NCBI GenBank assembly: GCA_027483995.1 | Contig: JAIXTK010000190.1 | Coordinates: 1 to 33,800, forward strand | Source: Acetobacteraceae bacterium | Lineage (GTDB): Bacteria; Pseudomonadota; Alphaproteobacteria; Acetobacterales; Acetobacteraceae | DNA: 33,800 nucleotides | Reading direction: 5' to 3' | Part shown: positions 6,782-31,969 of the stretch, piece after piece | Position numbering within the stretch: position 1 is the stretch's first letter | How the letters are laid out: every line of letters begins with the position of its first letter | Translations under genes and position numbers: made by a program | The notes under the pieces: model-generated | The model's input: only the letters and a program-made list of their open reading frames with translations | Databases searched by the model: none | Told to the model about the DNA's origin: nothing

Positions 6782-7978
6782 ATGCCCCATGTCGAGATCC
6801 GCCCGGCCCGCGCCGAGGAAATGGCCGACTACGCCCGCCAGGCCTCCCGCCAGCTCGCCATGGCCGATTCCCTCTTCGAAGGCATGGACCCCGCCTGGAC
6901 CATGTGCGCCGTCGTCGATGGCGCCATCGCCACCACCTACGCCGCCTGGCCGCTGCAGATCCGTCTCAATGGCCGCGCCGTTCGCATTGCCGGCGTCACC
7001 CAGGTCTCCACCCACCCCGCCCATCGCCGCCGCGGCTACCTCCGCGCGGTGAGCCAAAAACACTTCGAAACCCTGCACGAAAAGCGCGATGTCGCCTTCG
7101 CCGGCCTCCACCCCGCCTGGGTCGCCCTCTACCAGCGCTACGGCTACGGCACCGTCCACCAGCGCCACACCTACCGCATCGCCCCCAGGGACATCGCCTT
7201 CCACCGCCCCCTCGCCCCCACCGGCACGCTGCGCGAACTCCACCCGGAAGCCGATTTCGCCACCCTGGTGGACGTCTATCGCCAGTACCGCGAACCCCGC
7301 ACCGGCCTCGTCCATCGCGGCCGCGCCATGTGGCTCGCCGGCGCCCTGCAATCCCCACCCCCGGGCCACAAGCAGGTCATCCTCGCCTATCAGGAAGGCG
7401 CTACAACCCTCGGCTACGTCGCCTACCACCACGGCATGGCCCCCCGCCCGCGCCCCCTGGTCATCACCGACCTCTTCGCCCTCACCCCGCCCGCCCACCA
7501 GGCGCTCTGGCAGGCGCTGGCCAGCTACGACAATGTCGAGGACATTCTCTGGGACAACGCGCCCGCGGACGACCCCCTGCCCCTGATGCTCACCGAACCC
7601 CGCCACCTCAACCGCGGCGTGCGAGACGGCATCATGGCCCGCCTCGTCACCGTGGAAGACGCCATGGCCCAACGCCCCTACGCCGCCGCCTCCGAACTGC
7701 GCTTCACCCTCAAGGACAGCTTCTGCCCCTGGAACCAGGGCAGCTGGCGCATCGCCACCTCCCCCGAAGCCGGCCACGCCACCCGCATCGATGGCCAGGA
7801 CACCGACCTCACCCTCACGCCCGATACCCTCGCCTCCCTCGTCTTCGGCCGCCTCACCGCCACCGAAGCCGCCACCGCCGGCCTGCTGGAAAACATCCGC
7901 AACGCCGATGCGCTCGCCCGCTGGAACGAAGTGCTCCGCCTCGCCCACCCACCCCACGAAGCCGAGCACACCTGGTAG
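6782..7978 (+). CDS. Eis-like GNAT N-acetyltransferase with C-terminal SCP2-like domain
   Basis: A 398-residue protein, close to the usual length of the Eis family (about 400). The N-terminal GNAT half contains the acetyl-CoA pyrophosphate-binding stretch VSTHPAHRRRGYLRAV and the following FAGLHPAWVALYQRYGYG, typical of Eis-like proteins. The middle is a second GNAT-like fold and the C-terminal part (about 290-398) fits the sterol-carrier-like domain of this family. Known members acetylate amines such as aminoglycosides or lysines; the substrate here cannot be predicted. The ATG lies after CCAGGGAGAGCGCCC, a plausible ribosome binding site. The last codons, PPHEAEHTW, are repeated as DNA 981 bp downstream, beyond the prephenate-dehydratase-like gene. 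Confidence 0.88.
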   Translation: MPHVEIRPARAEEMADYARQASRQLAMADSLFEGMDPAWTMCAVVDGAIATTYAAWPLQIRLNGRAVRIAGVTQVSTHPAHRRRGYLRAVSQKHFETLHEKRDVAFAGLHPAWVALYQRYGYGTVHQRHTYRIAPRDIAFHRPLAPTGTLRELHPEADFATLVDVYRQYREPRTGLVHRGRAMWLAGALQSPPPGHKQVILAYQEGATTLGYVAYHHGMAPRPRPLVITDLFALTPPAHQALWQALASYDNVEDILWDNAPADDPLPLMLTEPRHLNRGVRDGIMARLVTVEDAMAQRPYAAASELRFTLKDSFCPWNQGSWRIATSPEAGHATRIDGQDTDLTLTPDTLASLVFGRLTATEAATAGLLENIRNADALARWNEVLRLAHPPHEAEHTW

Positions 7979-7980
7979 CC
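7952..7980 (+). repeat. 29-bp direct repeat, copy A (3' end of the GNAT gene)
   Basis: This stretch begins CCCCACGAAGCCGAGCACA and ends GGTAGCC. It covers the last codons and the stop of the acetyltransferase gene. It matches 8933-8961 at 27 of 29 positions. The two copies flank the prephenate-dehydratase-like gene. Confidence 0.85.
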
Positions 7981-8006
7981 CCGACAAGGGCGCCAAGAGC
8001 GGCCCG

Positions 8007-8879
8007 CTACCGCGTGCTGTAGGCGCCCACCAGAACATAAGGACCCTGCGCGAGCCGCGCCCTGATCTCCACCAGCGGAACAGGCCGCTCGGAGGCCGCC
8101 GCCACGGCATAGCGGAACGCAAACGGCGCCCCCGGCAACGGCGCGGCGTTGACGAAGGTCACGCAAAACCCGAGCCCATGCAGGGCGCTCACCGCCTTGC
8201 CCAGGGCGGCCGACTGCCCGGGCGCGTCGATCGACAGCACAACCCTGTCCGGCATCTCGGCCAGCGCCGCCGAAGCCGGGCCGATCACCCAGAACAGCGT
8301 GGTGTTGGTCGGATCGTCCTGGATCCCCTCGGCCAGCGCGACCAGCCCGAACAGCGGCATCGCCGCCGGCCCCGCCACCGCCGCCGACGTTCCGTCCCCG
8401 GCCGCCACCTCGCGCGCAGCCGCCGCGGTGGATGCGGTCTCGACCAGCTGAAGGTCCGCGTACTCCCGCCGCAGCACGACGGACGCCTCTTTCAGCGCAT
8501 TCGGATGCGACAGCACGCGCCGAAGGTCCTCGCGCCTTGTCCCCGGCTTCACCAGCAGGTGGGACACGATCGGAAGCTGAACCTCCCCCACCACGCGCCA
8601 TCCGGGATCGCTGGCGCCCAGCAGCGCCGCGTGCGCCGCCGCCGGGAATGCGCTCGTGGTCGCCACGATCGGAAGGATGCCCAGCCTGGCCCGCCCGTTC
8701 GCCACGGCCTCCGCCACCGCGCCCAGGCTGCTCTGGGCGCTGGGCAGGGCATCAATGCCGCGCTGCGCCAGGGCGGCGAGCGCCGCCTGCTCGGAGTAGG
8801 TGCCCCGCGGGCCGAGATAGGCGAGCTCGGCGGGCTGTGCCGGCTCGGTCGTGGCCGCACCGGCGGCTTGCTTCATCAT
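8007..8879 (-). CDS. Degenerate prephenate dehydratase-like protein (PheA paralogue)
   Basis: A 290-residue protein. Start MMKQAAG is the ATG complementary to 8877-8879; the longer track ORF is antisense to the downstream amidohydrolase. It shows the fold signature of prephenate dehydratase: AYLGPRGTYSEQAA (residues 20-33), EVQLPIVSHLL (99-109), LSHPNALKE (123-131) and GIQDDPTNTTLFWVIG (185-200). The C-terminal part (about 212-290) resembles an ACT regulatory domain. Key positions differ from the working enzyme. The ENS segment after the first strand reads VATTS, and the catalytic TRF motif reads TLF, losing the Arg. The ESRP phenylalanine-binding motif of the ACT domain is not recognisable. 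It may be a non-catalytic or altered-function paralogue rather than the enzyme of phenylalanine synthesis. It lies between two copies of a 29-bp direct repeat. Confidence 0.82.
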   Translation of the reverse strand: MMKQAAGAATTEPAQPAELAYLGPRGTYSEQAALAALAQRGIDALPSAQSSLGAVAEAVANGRARLGILPIVATTSAFPAAAHAALLGASDPGWRVVGEVQLPIVSHLLVKPGTRREDLRRVLSHPNALKEASVVLRREYADLQLVETASTAAAAREVAAGDGTSAAVAGPAAMPLFGLVALAEGIQDDPTNTTLFWVIGPASAALAEMPDRVVLSIDAPGQSAALGKAVSALHGLGFCVTFVNAAPLPGAPFAFRYAVAAASERPVPLVEIRARLAQGPYVLVGAYSTR

Positions 8880-9009: not shown

Positions 9010-10182
9010 ATGACCGACACCCTCGCCCTGATCCAACCCCTCGTCCCCGAGCTCACCGCCATCCGCCGCGATATCCATGCCCACCCGGAAATGGGCCTGG
9101 AGGAAACCCGCACCGCCGCCCTGGTGGCGAGCAAGCTGCGCGAATGGGGCGTCGAATACGTGGAAGGCATCGGCAAGACCGGCCTCGTCGCCACCATCCG
9201 CGGCAAGCTCCCCGGCCAGCGCGCCATCGGCCTGCGGGCCGACATGGATGCGCTCGCCATCGTGGAGCAGACCAACGCGCCCCACGCCTCCACCTACCAA
9301 GGCGTGATGCATGCCTGCGGGCATGACGGCCACACCACCATGCTCCTCGGCGCCGCCCGCGCGCTGAAGGAGAACCCGGATTTTGCCGGTACCGTCCACC
9401 TGATCTTCCAGCCCGCCGAGGAAGGCCGCGGCGGCGCGCTCGCCATGCTGGCCGATGGCCTGCTGGAGCGTTTCCCCTGCGACACGCTCTACGGCATGCA
9501 TTGCTCCCCCGGCATGCCCATCGGCCAGTTCGGCATCCGCAAGGGCGCGGCCATGGCCGGCGGCTGCATGTTCCACGTCACCTTCACCGGCAAGGGCGGC
9601 CATGGCGGCGCCACCCCGCATCTCTCGATCGACCTCTCGATCATCCAGGCCCACTTCGTTCTCGGCCTGCAAACCATCGTCGGCCGCAACATCTCCGCCT
9701 TCGACCCTGCCGTGATCAGCGTTGGCCATATCGGCGGCGGCGACCGCCAGTCCGCCAACGTCATGCCCGCCGAAATGACCGTCTCCGGCACCGCACGCCA
9801 CTACAACGACGCCACCAAGGAGATCATCGAGCGCCGCATCACCGAACTCGCCGAAGGCCTGGCCAAGCTGCACGGCGCCGGCGTAACCGTGGACTTCACC
9901 TGGGTCGCGGAACCGCTGGTGAACGCCGATGGCCCCACCGATGTGGCCAAGGCCGCCGCCGCCTCCGTGGTGGGCGAAGCTGCGGTGAACCCCAACATGC
10001 CCGCCACCGGCGGCGGCGAAGACTTCGCCTACATGCTGAAGCAGAAGCAGGGCGCCTTCATCCGCATCGGCAACGGAGCCTCCTCCGGCGTGCATACGCC
10101 CACCTTCGACTTCAACGACGAGGCGATCCCGTATGGGGTGGCGTATTGGGTGGAGCTGGTGAAGCAGGAATTGAAGCTATGA
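9010..10182 (+). CDS. M20 family amidohydrolase (hippuricase / IAA-amino acid hydrolase-like)
   Basis: A 390-residue metallo-amidohydrolase of the M20D type. It hydrolyses N-acyl amino acids or related amides in known members, and the substrate here is not predictable. Visible motifs in order are RRDIHAHPEMGLEE, LRADMDAL, the metal-binding GVMHACGHDGHTTML, FQPAEEGRGGA with the catalytic Glu, the dimerisation-domain motif GKGGHGG, and the C-terminal GGGEDFAYM metal ligand. Length is normal for the family. The ATG at 9010 (MTDTLALIQP) is chosen because the upstream extension to 8851 crosses the divergent spacer and repeat copy B. Its TGA stop lies exactly where the first AT-rich intergenic element begins. 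Confidence 0.95.
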   Translation: MTDTLALIQPLVPELTAIRRDIHAHPEMGLEETRTAALVASKLREWGVEYVEGIGKTGLVATIRGKLPGQRAIGLRADMDALAIVEQTNAPHASTYQGVMHACGHDGHTTMLLGAARALKENPDFAGTVHLIFQPAEEGRGGALAMLADGLLERFPCDTLYGMHCSPGMPIGQFGIRKGAAMAGGCMFHVTFTGKGGHGGATPHLSIDLSIIQAHFVLGLQTIVGRNISAFDPAVISVGHIGGGDRQSANVMPAEMTVSGTARHYNDATKEIIERRITELAEGLAKLHGAGVTVDFTWVAEPLVNADGPTDVAKAAAASVVGEAAVNPNMPATGGGEDFAYMLKQKQGAFIRIGNGASSGVHTPTFDFNDEAIPYGVAYWVELVKQELKL

Positions 10183-10315
10183 AAGAGTCTTCTTTTTTCT
10201 GAAGAAAAAAGAAGCAAAAAAGACTTCATTCGCTTGCACGCGTGCCGGTCACCCAGCACGCGTGCCAGCATACAAAAGTTTTTTGGTTCTTTTTTTCAAA
10301 AAAGAACCTCTTTCC
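10183..10315. repeat. AT-rich intergenic hairpin element, copy 1
   Basis: First of three related elements. The left hairpin is CTTCTTTTTTC-TGAA-GAAAAAAGAAG (about 10190-10214). The right hairpin is GGTTCTTTTTT-TC-AAAAAAGAACC (10285-10308), preceded by AAAAGTTTTTT. The left hairpin is one base pair longer than in copies 2 and 3, with an extra T in one arm and an extra A in the other, so pairing is kept. The core holds GCACGCGTGC twice, a self-palindrome that can also pair with itself. The element lies between convergent genes, the amidohydrolase and the acetamidase-like gene, and could act as a bidirectional terminator. Confidence 0.88.
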
Positions 10316-13436: not shown

Positions 13437-13575
13437 CTAAGCAAGGATTCTTCTTTTTCTGAAGAAAAAGAAGCAAAAAGACTTTTATTCGTTTGCAGCG
13501 TAACCTGTCGGGAGCCCCCGGCCCAATTCGAAAAGTTTTTTGGTTCTTTTTTTCAAAAAAGAGCCGCTTGCTTAG
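13437..13575. repeat. AT-rich intergenic hairpin element, copy 2, with perfect 9-bp terminal inverted repeats
   Basis: Ends are CTAAGCAAG (13437-13445) and CTTGCTTAG (13567-13575), a perfect inverted repeat. The left hairpin is CTTCTTTTTC-TGAA-GAAAAAGAAG (13450-13473), then GCAAAAAGACTTTT. The right hairpin GGTTCTTTTTTTC...GAGCC spans 13542-13565, with one A-to-G change that leaves a G-T wobble on one strand. The core differs from the other copies and holds its own CGGG-AGCC-CCCG stem. Unlike copies 1 and 3 it lies between two same-strand genes, ferredoxin and mnmA. The TAA stop of the ferredoxin gene is inside its terminal repeat. Confidence 0.9.
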
Positions 13576-13904
13576 CCGGCCAACATGTTCCGACTGCCGG
13601 CCGGCAGCTTCACCACCAGCCCATCCAGCTCATCGCTCATCACGATCTGGCAGCCGAGGCGGGATGTCTTTTCCAGCCCGAAGGCGAGGTCGAGCATGTC
13701 TTCCTCATCCTCGGTTGGGTCGCCGAGCTTCTCAAACCACGCGGCGTCCACGATCACGTGGCAGGTGGAACACGCGAGGGAGCCTTCGCAGGCGCCTTCG
13801 ATATCCACGCCGTGCTTGTGCGCGATCTCCAGCACCGACAGGCCGAGCGGGGCGTCCACCTCGCGCCGGGCGCCGTCGCGATCGATGAAAATCATCTTGG
13901 GCAT
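13572..13904 (-). CDS. fdx: 2Fe-2S ferredoxin, adrenodoxin/ISC type
   Basis: A 110-residue plant/vertebrate-fold ferredoxin of the adrenodoxin group, an electron carrier usually serving iron-sulfur cluster assembly. Cluster ligands are C39, C45, C48 and C85 ([14 protein letters not shown] and SRLGCQI), with the spacing C-x5-C-x2-C-x36-C expected for the group. The acidic partner-binding helix is [13 protein letters not shown]. The start is [11 protein letters not shown] at 13904; the long track ORF upstream is the desulfurase region in another frame. It begins 8 bp after the stop of the IscS-like gene, so they are in one operon. The stop TAA lies within the terminal repeat of intergenic element copy 2. 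Confidence 0.96.
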
Positions 13905-13912
13905 GGGGGGCG

Positions 13913-15094
13913 TCAGGCCTCGGAAGAGTGGGACGGGGAAGCCGCGTGGGCGCGCGCCAGCATGGCGACGGCGGCATCGATATCGGCCGGGGAGGTAAAG
14001 CGTCCGATCCCGATGCGCAAGGTCCGCGCCGCCTGGTCGTCCGACAGGCCGAGCGCCTTCAGCACGTAGGAGGGCTCGACTTCCGCCGAGGAGCAGGCCG
14101 AGCCGGTGGAGACGCACAGCTCGGGCATCGCCGCCAGCATCGCCTGGGCTTGGGCGGCGGGGAAGGTGAGGTTGAGGTTGCCGGGAATGCGGTGCGTGGG
14201 GTCGGCATTGAGGTGAATGCCGGGAATGGCCTGGCCGAGTTCGGCCATCAGCCGGTCGCGCAGGGCGGCGATGCGCTGGTGATCGGCGTCCATCTCGGCA
14301 CGGGCGATGCGGCAGGCCTCGCCGAGGCCGACGATCAGCGGCGCGGGCAGGGTGCCGGAGCGCAGCCCACGCTCCTGCCCGCCGCCGGAGAAGAGCGGGG
14401 CAAGGCGCACGCGCGGGCGGCGGCGGACATAGAGGGCGCCCACGCCCTTGGGGCCGTAGAGCTTGTGGCCGCTGATGGAGAGGAGGTCGATCTTCATCGC
14501 CTCTACATCCAGCGCGATCTTGCCGGCGGCCTGGGCGGCATCGGTGTGGAACTGGGCGCCGGCCGCGTGGGCGAGGGCGGCGAGGGCGGCGATGTCCTGC
14601 ACCACGCCGGTTTCGTTGTTCACCGCCATGACGGTGAGCAACAGGGTGGGCACGGACAGGGCCTCGCGCACGGCATCGGGATCGAGCAGACCGTCGGGGC
14701 GGACGGGCAGCACCACGGGCTCGAACCCCTCGGCCGCGAGGTCGGCCACCGCCTCCAGCACGCATTTATGTTCGGTGGCGGCGGTGATGATGCGCTTTCG
14801 CGGGTCGCCCTGCCCTGCTGCGAAGCGGGCAAGACCCTTGATGGCGATGTTGTTGCTTTCGGTGGCGCCGGAGGTGAGCACGATCTCGCGCGCATCGGCG
14901 CCGATCAGGGCGGCGACATGGGCGCGGGCCGTCTCCACCGCCGCTTCCGCGAAGCGGCCCATGGCGTGCTCGGCGGAATGCGGGTTGCCGAAATGCTCGG
15001 TGAAGAAGGGCAGCATCACCTGCACCACGCGCGGGTCGCATTGCGTGGTGGCCTGGTTGTCCAGGTAGATCGGGCGGTTGGGGCGGTTGTTCAT
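13913..15094 (-). CDS. Cysteine desulfurase, IscS/NifS family (second of a tandem pair)
   Basis: A PLP enzyme that takes sulfur from L-cysteine and holds it as a persulfide for iron-sulfur clusters or tRNA thiolation. The protein has 393 residues starting [17 protein letters not shown]. It has [11 protein letters not shown] (His stacking on PLP), [11 protein letters not shown], the PLP lysine K211 in [12 protein letters not shown], and the catalytic loop VSTGSACSS with C334. RIGIGRFT is the usual C-terminal strand. Length and the long flexible loop fit class I (IscS/NifS). It lies 10 bp after the first desulfurase gene and 8 bp before the ferredoxin gene. I give no symbol because iscS and nifS cannot be separated from sequence alone. 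Confidence 0.95.
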
Positions 15095-15104
15095 CGCAAG
15101 GGCC

Positions 15105-16199
15105 TCACGCCGCGCGGCGCAACAGGCGCCTGGCCATCTCCAGATAGGCGGCGACGAGGCGATCTGCATCCTCGGCCGTGGCATTCCACGGCAGTGACAC
15201 GCGCACGGCGCAGCCGGCCAGCGCGCCCAACCCCATCGCGGCGAGCACGTGGCTGGCCGCGACCTTGCCGGAGGAGCAGGCGGCGCCGGCCGAGACCTGG
15301 AAGCCCGCGAGATCGAGCGCAATCACCTGCGTATCCGCCCGCACGCCGGGCAGGGCGAGGCAGGTGGTGTTGGCCAGCCGCGGGGCGGCGGCGCCCAGGG
15401 CGACAGCACCGGCGGCGGTGGCGGCGGCCTCGATCCGGTCGCGCAGGGTGGCGAGGTGGGGCTGGTGGGGCAGGTCGGCCACCGCGGCGGCGGCGGCGGC
15501 GGCGAGGCCGGCGATGGCGGGAAGCGGGGGCGTGCCGCCGCGGCGCCCGCGTTCCTGCCCACCGCCACGCATCAGCGGCGGCAGGGCGGGGTCGCCGGCC
15601 AGCAGCAGCGCACCGGCGCCCATTGGCCCGCCGAGCTTGTGGCCGGAGACGGCGATGCTGTCCGCGCCCAGGGCCGGAAGGTCGATGGCGAGGCGCCCGG
15701 CGGCCTGCACGGCATCCACGTGCAGCCGCGCGCCATGGGCACGGCACAGTGCAGCGGCGTCGGCGATGGGGTGCAGCACGCCGGTTTCGTTGTTGGCGAG
15801 CATCAGGCATACCAGGGCAGGCGGGCCGGCGGCCAACTGGCGGGCCAGGGCGGGGAGGTCGGCGACGCCGGTCGTGTCCACCGCCACCATTTCGGCGCCC
15901 GGGGCGGCGGCGCGCACCGCATCATGCTCCGTGGCGCCGATCAGAATGCGCCGCCCGATGCCGAGGCCGTGCAGGGCGAGCGCGTTGGCCTCCGTGCCGC
16001 CGGAGGTGAACACCACGCCGGCGGGGGCGGCCCCGAAGCAGCCGGCGAGGCGGGCGCGCGCCTCCTCCAGCACCCGGCGTGCAGCACGTCCGGCGGCATG
16101 GACGGAAGAGGGATTGCCGGCCGCCTCCATCGCCGCCAGCACGGCCGCGCGGGCGGCGGGGCGCAACGGTTCGGTGGCATTCGCGTCGAAGTAGGCCAT
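15105..16199 (-). CDS. Cysteine desulfurase, NifS-like (first of a tandem pair)
   Basis: A 364-residue PLP enzyme paralogous to its downstream neighbour but shorter and more Ala-rich. It begins MAYFDANATEPLRP. Visible motifs are FTSGGTEANALALHG, GATEHDAV, LHVDAVQAAGRL, the PLP lysine K188 in VSGHKLGGPMGAGAL, RGGGQERGRRGGTP and the catalytic GAACSSGK with C308. All catalytic residues are present, so both copies should be active. The start is preceded by GGGAGGCGGC, a good ribosome binding site, and the gene heads the operon desulfurase-desulfurase-fdx-mnmA. No iscU, iscA or Rrf2-type regulator gene is present in the cluster as seen here. Confidence 0.94.
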   Translation of the reverse strand: MAYFDANATEPLRPAARAAVLAAMEAAGNPSSVHAAGRAARRVLEEARARLAGCFGAAPAGVVFTSGGTEANALALHGLGIGRRILIGATEHDAVRAAAPGAEMVAVDTTGVADLPALARQLAAGPPALVCLMLANNETGVLHPIADAAALCRAHGARLHVDAVQAAGRLAIDLPALGADSIAVSGHKLGGPMGAGALLLAGDPALPPLMRGGGQERGRRGGTPPLPAIAGLAAAAAAAVADLPHQPHLATLRDRIEAAATAAGAVALGAAAPRLANTTCLALPGVRADTQVIALDLAGFQVSAGAACSSGKVAASHVLAAMGLGALAGCAVRVSLPWNATAEDADRLVAAYLEMARRLLRRAA

Positions 16200-27300: not shown

Positions 27301-27399
27301 CCGGCGGTTGACGTGGCGCAATTGCACGCCACCTTCGCAGCGTTGGCGGAACAGGTGCGCGCATGCTTCGCGCGCCATGTCGGGGAGATCGACGGATGA
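24394..27399 (+). CDS. glnE: Bifunctional glutamine synthetase adenylyltransferase/deadenylase
   Basis: GlnE adds and removes AMP on glutamine synthetase in response to PII proteins, tuning nitrogen assimilation. The product is about 1001 residues. Both nucleotidyltransferase domains show their signatures: MGKLGARELNYSSDVDVILIHD in the N-terminal deadenylylase half, and VVMGKAGGREMMAGSDLDMM in the C-terminal adenylylase half. Each is followed by RLRP segments (DLRLRPDP and DMRLRPSG) and helical regulatory regions (GGIREIEFLAQ and GGQIEVEFVAQ). The start ATG at 24394 (MPHSSALPATP) is chosen because earlier in-frame codons run antisense into the AsmA-like gene; it has no obvious ribosome binding site. 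It overlaps the next gene by the 4 nt ATGA, indicating coupling. Confidence 0.96.
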   Translation: MPHSSALPATPSPDAKTGPSLLSGTWPKPADTEAAGRLVERFSDLGRSEAKLARDPVVRAMLLAIGGNAPFLADLAIRDSAMLRAALRDGPDAVVAGIMAGLAAIPPTLARAQLASRLRAAKRAVSLLVALADIGGLWPLDKVTQALADLAEAGLSLSVAHLLRAAHDSGELTLPDRANPAHACGFTVLGMGKLGARELNYSSDVDVILIHDPAAGVYHGDAPVAFYTRMARGLVTLMEARDSDGYVFRTDLRLRPDPAATPPCIALPAAIAYYESMGQNWERAAMLKARPVAGDHALGHAFLEAIRPFIWRRHLDFAAVADIHAMKRRIDEHKGNRESAEVDPVARLLGHNVKLGIGGIREIEFLAQSLQLVWGGRDPTLRVLRTIEALRLLVRAGHVPRRTAGELAAAYRFLRRVEHRLQMVHDRQTHSLPEKPEQMAAFATFMGYDSAAAFADALLRHMARVRTAYGAVFEQIPELAPAAAGLVLDFRGVGEAPPETMASLSGLGFKEVERIVSAVRGWKSGRVRALRSPRAQELMDQVLPALLAALARQAQPDAAFNRWDSFLARLPAGVQLLSLFQRNPVLLDRIAGVLGAAPMLSDYLARTPAALEGLLDPAPSPDYARMLRLRLGDARVLEDAISIIRATVREEEFSLAVATMEGRLDADAAGKLRAALAEAALAALLPPVQEDFARRFGRVRGGGLALVVMGKAGGREMMAGSDLDMMIVYDHPEAVAQSTARAPARPLAASQWFIRAVHAYVAAVTAPDAEGPMFAVDMRLRPSGNKGPVAVSLAAFERYHGPAGAAEGGAWTWERMALTRARVIAGPPKLRARVEAAIQAAIAGAGEPARIRADATAMRARLLRDLPPSGPWDVKLRPGGQIEVEFVAQVLQLVHAAGVPSTPTTREALARLRDEGLLPADDAALLIRADRVWRTVQGLLRITYGRQPAEKLSEAAAATLLRAATAAGAPAVDVAQLHATFAALAEQVRACFARHVGEIDG

Positions 27400-27854
27400 G
27401 CGTGGACGCAGGCGATACCGCACCAGACTTCACCATGGCCGCCAGCGGCGGCCGATCCGTGAGCCTGGCGGGCCAGAAGGGAAAGCCCTTCGTGCTCTAC
27501 TTCTACCCCAAGGCGGATACGCCAGGCTGCACCAAGGAAGCCTGCGGCTTCGAGGAATCGCTGCCGCAGTTCAAGGGCATCGACGTGATCGGCGTCTCGC
27601 CCGATGCGATGCCGCCGATCGAGAAATTCGCCAAGAAGTACAACCTCACCTTCCCGCTCGCCTCGGACGCGGACAATGCCGTGGCCACCGCCTATGGCGT
27701 GTGGGTGGAGAAATCCATGTACGGCAAGAAATACATGGGCATCGAGCGCTCCACCTTCCTGATCGACAAATCCGGCAAGATCGCGAAGGCCTGGCGCAAG
27801 GTGAAGGTGGATGGCCACGCGGCCGAGGTGATGGCGGCGGCGGCCAGCCTGTAA
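27396..27854 (+). CDS. bcp: Thioredoxin-dependent peroxiredoxin (BCP/PrxQ type)
   Basis: A 152-residue peroxiredoxin that reduces hydrogen peroxide and organic peroxides using thioredoxin. The active-site stretch YPKADTPGCTKEACGF has peroxidatic Cys45 and, five residues on, resolving Cys50, the atypical 2-Cys PrxQ arrangement. LYFYPK before it and ERSTFLIDKSGKI after it are typical. The start MSVDAGDTAPDF overlaps the glnE stop by ATGA, so translation is probably coupled; the track start at 27363 lies inside glnE. Pairing of glnE and bcp is a gene-order observation, not a known pathway link. Its stop codon TAA is the first three bases of intergenic element copy 3. Confidence 0.96.
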   Translation: MSVDAGDTAPDFTMAASGGRSVSLAGQKGKPFVLYFYPKADTPGCTKEACGFEESLPQFKGIDVIGVSPDAMPPIEKFAKKYNLTFPLASDADNAVATAYGVWVEKSMYGKKYMGIERSTFLIDKSGKIAKAWRKVKVDGHAAEVMAAAASL

Positions 27855-27980
27855 GCAAGAGTCTTCTTTTTCTGAAGAAAAAGAAGCAAAAAGACTTTTG
27901 TACCTTTGCGCCGTGGCTAGCCCGGGCGCAAAGGTGTAAAAGTTTTTTGGTTCTTTTTTTCAAAAAAGAACCGCTTCCTT
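27852..27980. repeat. AT-rich intergenic hairpin element, copy 3
   Basis: It starts TAAGCAAGAGTCTTC; the left hairpin is CTTCTTTTTC-TGAA-GAAAAAGAAG and the right hairpin GGTTCTTTTTT-TC-AAAAAAGAACC is at 27949-27972. The inner part is also an inverted repeat: ACTTTTGTACCTTTGCGCC pairs with GGGCGCAAAGGTGTAAAAGT with few mismatches. The whole element could therefore fold as one long stem or as separate hairpins. It lies between convergent bcp and the MsrQ-like gene. The bcp stop is its left end, and the MsrQ-like ORF ends inside it. Confidence 0.9.
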
Positions 27981-28795
27981 CCTATTGCGAGTAGCACCAC
28001 GGCGCCCGCCAGCAGCAAAACCTGCGAGGCAGGTCGCCCCCAGGGGTCGAACCCCAGATTGGCATTCAGCACCCTCATGTAGGGCACCTTGGTGGCCAGC
28101 CCGTACCACGCCACCTCGGTCACCGCCGTGATCAGCGCCGCTGCCGGCGCCAGTGCGGCCAGCCGCCACAGCCCCGGCCGCTTCAGCACGCGCCAGAGCA
28201 TCAGCCAGGCGAAGATCCCGAACCAGAACACCGCGTCGCTGGCGTTCACCTTGGCCTGCAGCGCGTAGTGGAACATCGCCAGCACGGCCAGCGCATAGGC
28301 CCAGCGATGCAGCGCCTTCCAGCGCTGCCGCAGCCGCTTCTGCCAGCCATCGGTGGAGGTCCAGGCCAGCACCGACAGCCCCAGCACGGCCACGAACCCC
28401 ACCGTGAGGTAGAAGCGCAGGACGATCTCGCTGGCCACCGTCCACAGGTTCCACTTCTGGTCCGCCACGTAGAGCAACAGGTGCAGCAGGGCATAGAGCG
28501 CCGCCGCCACGCCCAGGATGCGCCGCACCTGCAGGATGCGCGGCCAGTCCAGCACCGCGCGGGCCGGCGTCACCGCCAGGGAGAACACCAGGAACCGCAC
28601 CGCCCAATCGCCGCTGCGATGGATCGCCTCGGTCAGCGGCCGCGGGCCGAGATCGGCCAGGCCCCAGCGCAGCACCAGCCACAGCGCGGGATAGAGCGCA
28701 AAGGCCAGCACCGCCGCCTTCAACGCGGAGAAGCGGCCGGCATGGTCGGTCCAGGGAATCCACTCGTTGCGCATCATCGCCGCCATCCACACCAT
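27917..28795 (-). CDS. MsrQ/YedZ-like heme-binding membrane protein (ferric reductase-like domain)
   Basis: A 292-residue integral membrane protein of the ferric reductase-like transmembrane group. The hydrophobic segments include AVLAFALYPALWLVLRWGL, VRFLVFSLAVTPARAVL, ILGVAAALYALLHLLLYVA, FYLTVGFVAVLGLSVLAW, ALHRWAYALAVLAMFHYAL and LLLAGAVVLLAIG. Histidines in LLHLLLY, ALHRWAY and MFHYAL are candidates for heme b ligands. MsrQ passes electrons to the periplasmic methionine sulfoxide reductase MsrP; no msrP is adjacent, so the partner is unknown. The start (MVWMAAMMRNEW) is uncertain among several Met codons. The last residues after LLAIGRK (RFFFEKKNQKTFTPLRPG) are encoded by intergenic element copy 3, so the native C-terminus was probably different. 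Confidence 0.85.
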   Translation of the reverse strand: MVWMAAMMRNEWIPWTDHAGRFSALKAAVLAFALYPALWLVLRWGLADLGPRPLTEAIHRSGDWAVRFLVFSLAVTPARAVLDWPRILQVRRILGVAAALYALLHLLLYVADQKWNLWTVASEIVLRFYLTVGFVAVLGLSVLAWTSTDGWQKRLRQRWKALHRWAYALAVLAMFHYALQAKVNASDAVFWFGIFAWLMLWRVLKRPGLWRLAALAPAAALITAVTEVAWYGLATKVPYMRVLNANLGFDPWGRPASQVLLLAGAVVLLAIGRKRFFFEKKNQKTFTPLRPG

Positions 28796-31296: not shown

Positions 31297-31500
31297 TCAG
31301 ACCAGCTTGAGGTTGGTGGCGGCGGCCTTGCCGCGCTCCATCGCCACGTCGTAGCTGACCTTCTGGCCGTCATTCAGGCCCTTCAGGCCCGCGGCCTGCA
31401 CGGCGGTGATGTGGACGAACACGTCCTTGCCGCCGTCAGACGGCATGATGAAGCCGTAGCCCTTGGTGGCGTTGAACCACTTCACGGTGCCCATAGCCAT
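31297..31500 (-). CDS. Cold-shock domain protein, CspA family (copy 1)
   Basis: A 67-residue single cold-shock domain that binds single-stranded RNA/DNA and melts mRNA structure. The RNA-binding motifs are KGYGFI (RNP1) and VFVHI (RNP2), after the conserved start GTVKWFNATKG. The start follows AGGAG with 9 nt spacing. It is about 81% identical by eye to the second copy 265 bp upstream; the C-terminal [14 protein letters not shown] is the same in both. They are probably products of a tandem duplication and may be differently expressed. The intervening 31501-31765 shows no gene and no clear promoter. Confidence 0.96.
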   Translation of the reverse strand: MAMGTVKWFNATKGYGFIMPSDGGKDVFVHITAVQAAGLKGLNDGQKVSYDVAMERGKAAATNLKLV

Positions 31501-31765: not shown

Positions 31766-31969
31766 TCAGGCCAGCTTGAGGTTCGTGGCAGCGGCCTTGC
31801 CGCGCTCCATCGCCACCTCGTAGCTAACCTTCTGCCCCTCGGTCAGGCCACGAAGCCCGGCCGCCTGAACTGCGGTGATGTGCACGAACACATCCTTGCC
31901 GCCATCCTGGGGCATGATGAAACCAAAGCCCTTCGTGGTGTTGAACCACTTCACAGTACCGATAGCCAT
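31766..31969 (-). CDS. Cold-shock domain protein, CspA family (copy 2)
   Basis: A 67-residue CspA-family protein starting [18 protein letters not shown], with RNP1 KGFGFI and RNP2 VFVHI. It differs from copy 1 mainly around residues 10-25 and 38-52, e.g. [15 protein letters not shown] against GLKGLNDGQKVSYDV. The ribosome binding site is weak (GGAG 11 nt before the ATG). A 7-bp hairpin, CTGTGCA...TGCACAG, lies in the leader 25 bp upstream of the start. Some csp leaders are known RNA thermosensors; whether this one is cannot be told. It sits downstream of groEL on the same strand behind two stem-loops, so it probably has its own promoter. Confidence 0.96.

Follow-up and report, generated by a model that had tools for sequence, protein, structure and literature searches.

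The window, meaning the whole stretch of 33,800 nt analysed here, is an entire contig (G000:C483) of a 5.0-Mb Acetobacteraceae genome in 501 contigs (89% complete, 5% contaminated); among named relatives, the closest are metagenome assemblies, several of which come from lakes. It carries three copies of a folded repeat element of about 115 bases (Table 1). Copy 1 is located between a convergent amidohydrolase gene (9010-10182, plus strand) and an acetamidase-like gene, copy 2 lies 6 bp past the TAA codon of a 2Fe-2S ferredoxin-like gene (13572-13904, minus strand) and 21 bp ahead of an mnmA-like start (13427), and copy 3 is placed between the convergent genes of a bcp/PrxQ-like peroxiredoxin and msrQ. 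The product of the latter matched the NCBIfam MsrQ model with an E value of 3e-33, below the model cut-off, and its fair name is therefore MsrQ-like.

The sequence-only reading of this DNA had proposed that the MsrQ-like protein ends in residues encoded by copy 3, and that the acetamidase-like gene takes its last residues and its stop from copy 1 in a different frame. Both proposals were confirmed. The msrQ-like gene translates to ...VVLLAIGRKRFFFEKKNQKTFTPLRPG followed by the stop, with the frame staying open across the R half and core of copy 3; the 18 residues of the tail are coded by 27920-27973, the TAG stop occupies 27917-27919, and the codons just before the tail, GGA AGG AAG (GRK), already lie within the purine-rich NAAG flank of the element. 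The acetamidase-like protein ends ..NAGFRKEVLF, with its TGA codon inside the outer hairpin of copy 1. The R end is read one base apart in the two genes, as CGG TTC TTT TTT GAA in msrQ and as GAG GTT CTT TTT TGA in the acetamidase-like gene.

Elsewhere in the window, positions 31297-31500 and 31766-31969 form a 204-bp direct duplication (84% identical), each with a small called ORF of 62-65 aa. The adjacent same-strand genes at 13913-15094 and 15105-16199, cysteine-desulfurase-like by eye, have the direct repeats D4, D9 and D12 in common, which suggests a diverged tandem duplication.

Table 1. Coordinates of the element copies, the genes that adjoin them and other repeats (window positions unless a contig or locus is named)
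Feature	Position	Strand	Evidence
Element copy 1	10188..10308	+	half-element search
Acetamidase/formamidase-like CDS; TGA 10296-10298 in copy-1 hairpin loop	10296..11222	-	Pfam FmdA_AmdA
Element copy 2	13449..13565	+	half-element search
PrxQ/bcp-like peroxiredoxin CDS; native-length end, TAA adjoins copy 3	27396..27854	+	
Copy 3 flank GCAAGAG (NAAG type), directly 3' of peroxiredoxin stop TAA 27852-27854	27855..27861	+	
Element copy 3, L half to R half	27862..27972	+	blastn with half-element profiles; 40+ relatives in the same genome; fold z-score
Copy 3 L half: outer hairpin CTTCTTTTTCTGAAGAAAAAGAAG (27863-27886) plus GCAAAAAGACTTTT	27862..27899	+	
Copy 3 variable palindromic core GTACCTTTGCGCC..GGCGCAAAGGTGT	27900..27937	none	
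Copy 3 R half AAAAGTTTTTTGGTTCTTTTTTTCAAAAAAGAACC; outer hairpin 27949-27972	27938..27972	-	
Copy 3 NAAG flank, minus-strand reading AGGAAGGAAGC; encodes GRK of MsrQ	27973..27983	-	
Element-coded MsrQ tail RFFFEKKNQKTFTPLRPG plus TAG	27917..27973	-	ORF translation; orthologue comparison
msrQ-like CDS	27917..28795	-	Pfam Ferric_reduct; NCBIfam MsrQ model
GTAG-tagged REPs	L078 1403-2048; G006 C61 95152, C31 240889, C66 8954		

Architecture, distribution and proposed mobility of the repeat

The element consists of conserved T/A-rich hairpin ends, L (TCTTCTTTTTCTGAAGAAAAAGAAGCAAAAAGACTTTT) and R (GGTTCTTTTTTGAAAAAAAGAACCAAAAAACTTTT, inverted relative to L), with a variable palindromic core of mostly 35-48 nt between them and, in this genus, (N)AAGNAAG flanks. 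The L and R ends are imperfect inverted copies of each other, and thus terminal inverted repeats such as those of MITEs. As RNA, both strands fold into a hairpin, a long central stem and a second hairpin, with z-scores of -6.5 to -8.6 for copies 1 and 3 (-8.6 and -6.5 on the two strands of copy 3); copy 2 folds more weakly, its minus strand reaching a z-score of -0.9. Cores given arms from other elements folded at a mean of -12.1 kcal/mol, compared with -18.1 kcal/mol with their own arms (shuffle standard deviation 0.46): the arms pair within elements and not between them. Column-wise identity of the core arms yielded a weak signal (0.41 versus 0.38; 18 of 2000 shuffles), because the arm registers slip.

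The genome of the window holds at least 40 scored copies among 367 candidates, and the exact 24-bp R hairpin occurs 98 times, as opposed to 0 times for its reversed control. The element matches at the ends of the msrQ-like and acetamidase-like genes represent a repeat family and not chance resemblance. Rfam matches to plastid 3'UTR and miRNA models were all sub-threshold and were judged to be chance hairpin hits. Over 36-37 nt, the L half of copy 3 is identical on plasmids of Pseudoroseomonas cervicalis, and hundreds of copies of the element are present in some Acetobacteraceae. The pattern AAGTYTTTTTGSTTCTTTTT was detected in 65 of 250 genomes of this family, patchily distributed over 33 of 102 genera, with up to 489 half-sites per genome (G003) and 0 for the reversed control; no match was obtained in about 286 alphaproteobacterial genomes of other families.

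Single orthologous sites were found in filled, empty, half-deleted and core-exchanged states, and the empty sites contradict vertical descent of all copies. At copy 1, the window and the related genome G006 have the site and the R half in common; their cores are unrelated, both are palindromic, and both resemble cores located elsewhere in these genomes. Conversion between copies would be the simplest reading of this exchange. No target-site duplication was visible at pairs of empty and filled sites, where the target appears partly replaced. Where halves face each other 0.4-0.9 kb apart (L065, G006_C31, G005_C119), the stretches read enclosed no recognisable transposase, and at least one of these intervals holds a small unrelated ORF.

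A family of small proteins (L157-L176; in G005, G003, G007, G008 and others, e.g. G005:C119:12643-12900) was also observed, several copies of which lie near element halves. Its members have a conserved N-terminal stretch (..LRxxA..ALxxLIxAxLARLFARLExMxxLWQxGxLPPP) and a Pro/Arg-rich tail, gave no match in Pfam, and number 32-68 per genome in G003, G005, G007 and G008 versus 5-8 in the other five genomes.

Placement at gene ends and candidate functions

Placement was surveyed over about 1 Mb by means of a home-made codon-model gene caller and the half-element search. The copies were distributed as 36 between convergent, 36 between tandem and 3 between divergent genes, compared with 130, 613 and 139 gene pairs of these orientations. 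A stop codon lay within 15 bp of, or overlapped, 64 of the 75 copies with two neighbours, versus 6.4% of intergenic points, and the adjacent stop was TAA at 43 of 73 ends as against 62 of 579 elsewhere (p=1.5e-19), a bias that stems from the TAAG of the flank. When placement was examined again in other Acetobacteraceae records, which were fetched via the element peptide and are therefore not a random sample, 36 of 57 copies had a stop within 15 bp or overlapping; neither survey revealed a copy inside an ORF. PGAP-annotated genes on two P. cervicalis plasmids end equally close, with stops 4 and 9 bp from the copy in one case and 6 bp in the other. Three long G006 contigs carried a copy roughly every 11 kb, although density is uncertain since some sampled contigs were chosen for holding copies. 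A 140-kb stretch of the same genome (G006:C8 1-140000, L104-L110) contains only two element halves and has a low coding density (0.71) with the in-house caller; it is perhaps a plasmid or a foreign stretch.

These elements exhibit the layout of bidirectional terminators, with a GC-rich hairpin that leads into a T-tract on either strand, a site just past stop codons and an excess between convergent genes. Of 59 elements, 98% had a hairpin plus T-tract of -10 kcal/mol or below on both strands, versus 2.7% of 300 other gene ends scored on one strand, although a simple terminator scan picked up only the outer hairpin. Elements with swapped arms still passed this score at -10 kcal/mol in 92% of cases, owing to pairing of the A tracts with the T tracts, and the score therefore supports, without proving, selection for termination. 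We assign a probability of nearly 0.6 to the reading of the element as a REPIN-like mobile repeat that would act as a bidirectional terminator, both properties being deduced from sequence patterns. Against strong termination stand the close downstream starts in tandem pairs, which are awkward for it, the survival of stop-proximal halves, and the weak minus-strand fold of copy 2.

The leading reading, a putative bidirectional terminator, has as its main rival a REP-like stabiliser or processing site of mRNA 3' ends, in which the stop-proximal hairpin would block 3' exonucleases or be cut while read-through downstream is allowed. REPs, which have the same stop-proximal and convergent placement, have been discussed in such roles (PMC3733652), and two features of the survey fit them: where only one half survives, it is almost always the half next to the stop and not the distal half with the T-tract, and in about one-third of tandem pairs the downstream gene begins within 35 bp past the element, as does the mnmA-like gene. 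The T-tracts on both strands, however, are among the most conserved parts of the element, and the strong convergent excess likewise speaks for termination. A further indication comes from a Microviridae genome record, unverified and derived from cattle blood, that contains an intergenic R half (L156 701-738; MG945182.1 5907-5944) just after a strong, unrelated GC-rich hairpin; a T-tract set on an unrelated stem is the layout of a terminator. This R half could also point to a host among the Acetobacteraceae or to the borrowing of a terminator. On balance we regard mRNA end protection as rather unlikely, though it is the best placed of the alternatives.

A purely selfish repeat, inserted nearly at random and surviving only where it is harmless, at or just past stops, would agree with the high copy number, the patchy occurrence across genera, the lack of copies within genes and the tolerated C-terminal insertions. 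It accounts poorly for the 30 of 36 tandem copies whose distance to the stop is smaller than that to the following start, with a free spacer often longer than 50 bp, and for the core pairing preserved within elements, and we consider it unlikely.

Mobilisation as a REPIN population by a resident RAYT transposase appears very improbable. REPINs are inverted doublets with a clover fold (PMC3116915), and the element resembles them and REPs in being a high-copy, extragenic palindrome whose halves form inverted pairs around a less conserved spacer near 3' ends, with a clover-like fold; moreover, a RAYT gene is present in G000, G001 and G006. However, several element-rich genomes, such as G003, G008, G004 and G002, gave no Y1_Tnp match, the NAAG-rich edge of the element contained no GTAG or CGTC tag, and the repeats on either side of the resident RAYT are GTAG repeats of its own (GTAGCCCGCATCTTGATGCGGGC) and not the element. 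Since it has neither these tags nor a link to the resident RAYT, the element was not filed as a REPIN, from which it also differs in its T/A-rich ends of 35-38 nt, its GC-rich core exchangeable as a whole and its confinement, within the searched samples, to Acetobacteraceae. GTAG-tagged REPs of two kinds were observed in the same genus, namely GTAGCCCGCATC.. flanking a RAYT gene and GTAGGGCGG..CGCGAAGCGG.. beside decayed elements. CGTC-type repeats (CGTCATTGCGAGC..GAAGCAATCC) occur in G006 (C31 70662 and 119711; C40 10487 and 82480; C61 1796), in contrast with the listing of Acetobacteraceae among families without CGTC repeats (PMC3733652).

Other known systems are related to the element in part. 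Rickettsia palindromic elements, which are likewise palindromic repeats of an alphaproteobacterium, contribute residues to host proteins (PMC3733652), whereas the element studied here has no copies inserted in frame inside ORFs and alters C-termini only. Bidirectional terminators, including those of the DNA uptake sequence type in Neisseria and Pasteurellaceae, are also hairpins flanked by A- and T-tracts with a tail-to-tail excess (PMC1852404), but in the uptake sequence type the repeated word is the stem, whereas in this element the stem is free and the tracts and outer hairpins are repeated. Bacterial MITEs have in common with it the short, non-coding nature, the inverted ends and the insertion polymorphism, and may differ from it, as neither a target-site duplication nor an autonomous partner was found for the element in the site pairs and stretches read.

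Replacement of native protein ends

The sequence-only reading had further suggested that insertion removed or replaced the native ends of both genes, and comparison with orthologues upheld this: element-free orthologues with the same C-terminal residues were sought and none was found, and similarity is lost at the tail. For MsrQ, the element-free orthologues of G008, G003 and G012 (81%, 73% and 61% identical) stop resembling the window protein at the last transmembrane stretch and end in ..MRRVRRARPAVT (..RRVRRARPAVT), ..LRRRAEIVT and ..PRLARAI, respectively. The G008 acetamidase ends ..NAGFSAA, versus ..NAGFRKEVLF in the window and G006. The DNA of the empty sites has the native stops and no element, and in G008 the stops of msrQ and the peroxiredoxin gene almost abut. 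The msrQ insertion and tail are common to the window, G006 (96% identical) and G004, with the read-through frame conserved in both relatives; G002 has the R half in common at msrQ; and the sister species G005 carries an independent insertion, with the L half read in another frame to end ..SFSEEKEAKRLFVP. The change in MsrQ was probably near-neutral, as one basic tail after the last membrane stretch was swapped for another. A third replaced end was found in G002, where the product of 7265-8047 ends ..WIRIESK with TAA from the element flank, and its element-free relatives end, for example, ..WMKLPEGAA.

It is scarcely credible that the tails, whose translation is predicted from sequence, are artefacts of gene calling or represent native C-termini with a chance likeness to the repeat, since element-free orthologues have other ends and the frame into the MsrQ tail is continuous with conserved MsrQ sequence and has no earlier stop. 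At the msrQ locus, contigs begin or end within or next to copies of the element (start of G004:C203, end of G004:C117, start of G002:C121), and the fragmentation of these metagenome assemblies is therefore partly caused by the repeat.

Replacement is nevertheless a minority outcome of element adjacency. Only 9 of the 73 gene 3' ends that adjoin an element in G006 or the window lie inside it (the two genes of the window and their G006 orthologues being counted separately), whereas in about 88% the protein stop precedes the element hairpin by 2-15 bp. Native length was mostly retained in the element-adjacent orthologue pairs checked, among them the amidohydrolase, ferredoxin, peroxiredoxin, pyrC-like and other neighbours, although element neighbours often acquired a TAA stop. 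Depending on the frame, the element contributes TAA from its TAAG(NAAG)n flank or TGA at the hairpin apex, or else it is read through into the core.

The source of the MsrQ tail is a single copy of a palindromic repeat, abundant and specific to the family, that landed a few codons upstream of the native stop and supplied an element-coded protein end. The repeat may have spread as a non-autonomous mobile element, its cores being swapped between copies by conversion, and it would be retained at gene ends as a candidate bidirectional intrinsic terminator or mRNA 3'-end former, with a GC stem and a T-tract both ways. More broadly, and tentatively, a transposable repeat could be the main supplier of two-way intrinsic terminators here; the tracts and outer hairpins would be its conserved mobile chassis, the stem a cassette exchanged under selection only for pairing, and gene ends would be continually rewritten, in both stop codons and C-termini, during its spread.

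REPs lie less than 20 bp from 3' ends and are enriched where neighbouring genes converge or run in one direction; TAG stops are often supplied by the termini of GTAG REPs, and some REPs are located at ORF ends (PMC3733652). The donation of stop codons by REPs at gene ends is therefore already known. No published description of the present repeat was found in the open-access literature, within which the larger observation, namely this family of elements and its association with gene ends, is apparently undescribed. Annotators should expect tails such as FFFEKKNQKTF, SSFSEEKEAKRL or VLF followed by a stop to derive from the repeat, and assemblies to break at its copies. The filled, empty, core-exchanged and half-deleted sites of close relatives offer a clean natural series for the question of selection for termination. 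If the proposed reading is true, hundreds of gene ends would owe both stop codons and transcription stops to a mobile repeat, which alters C-termini as well, in a family of bacteria with freshwater, bog and cultured Roseomonas-type members.
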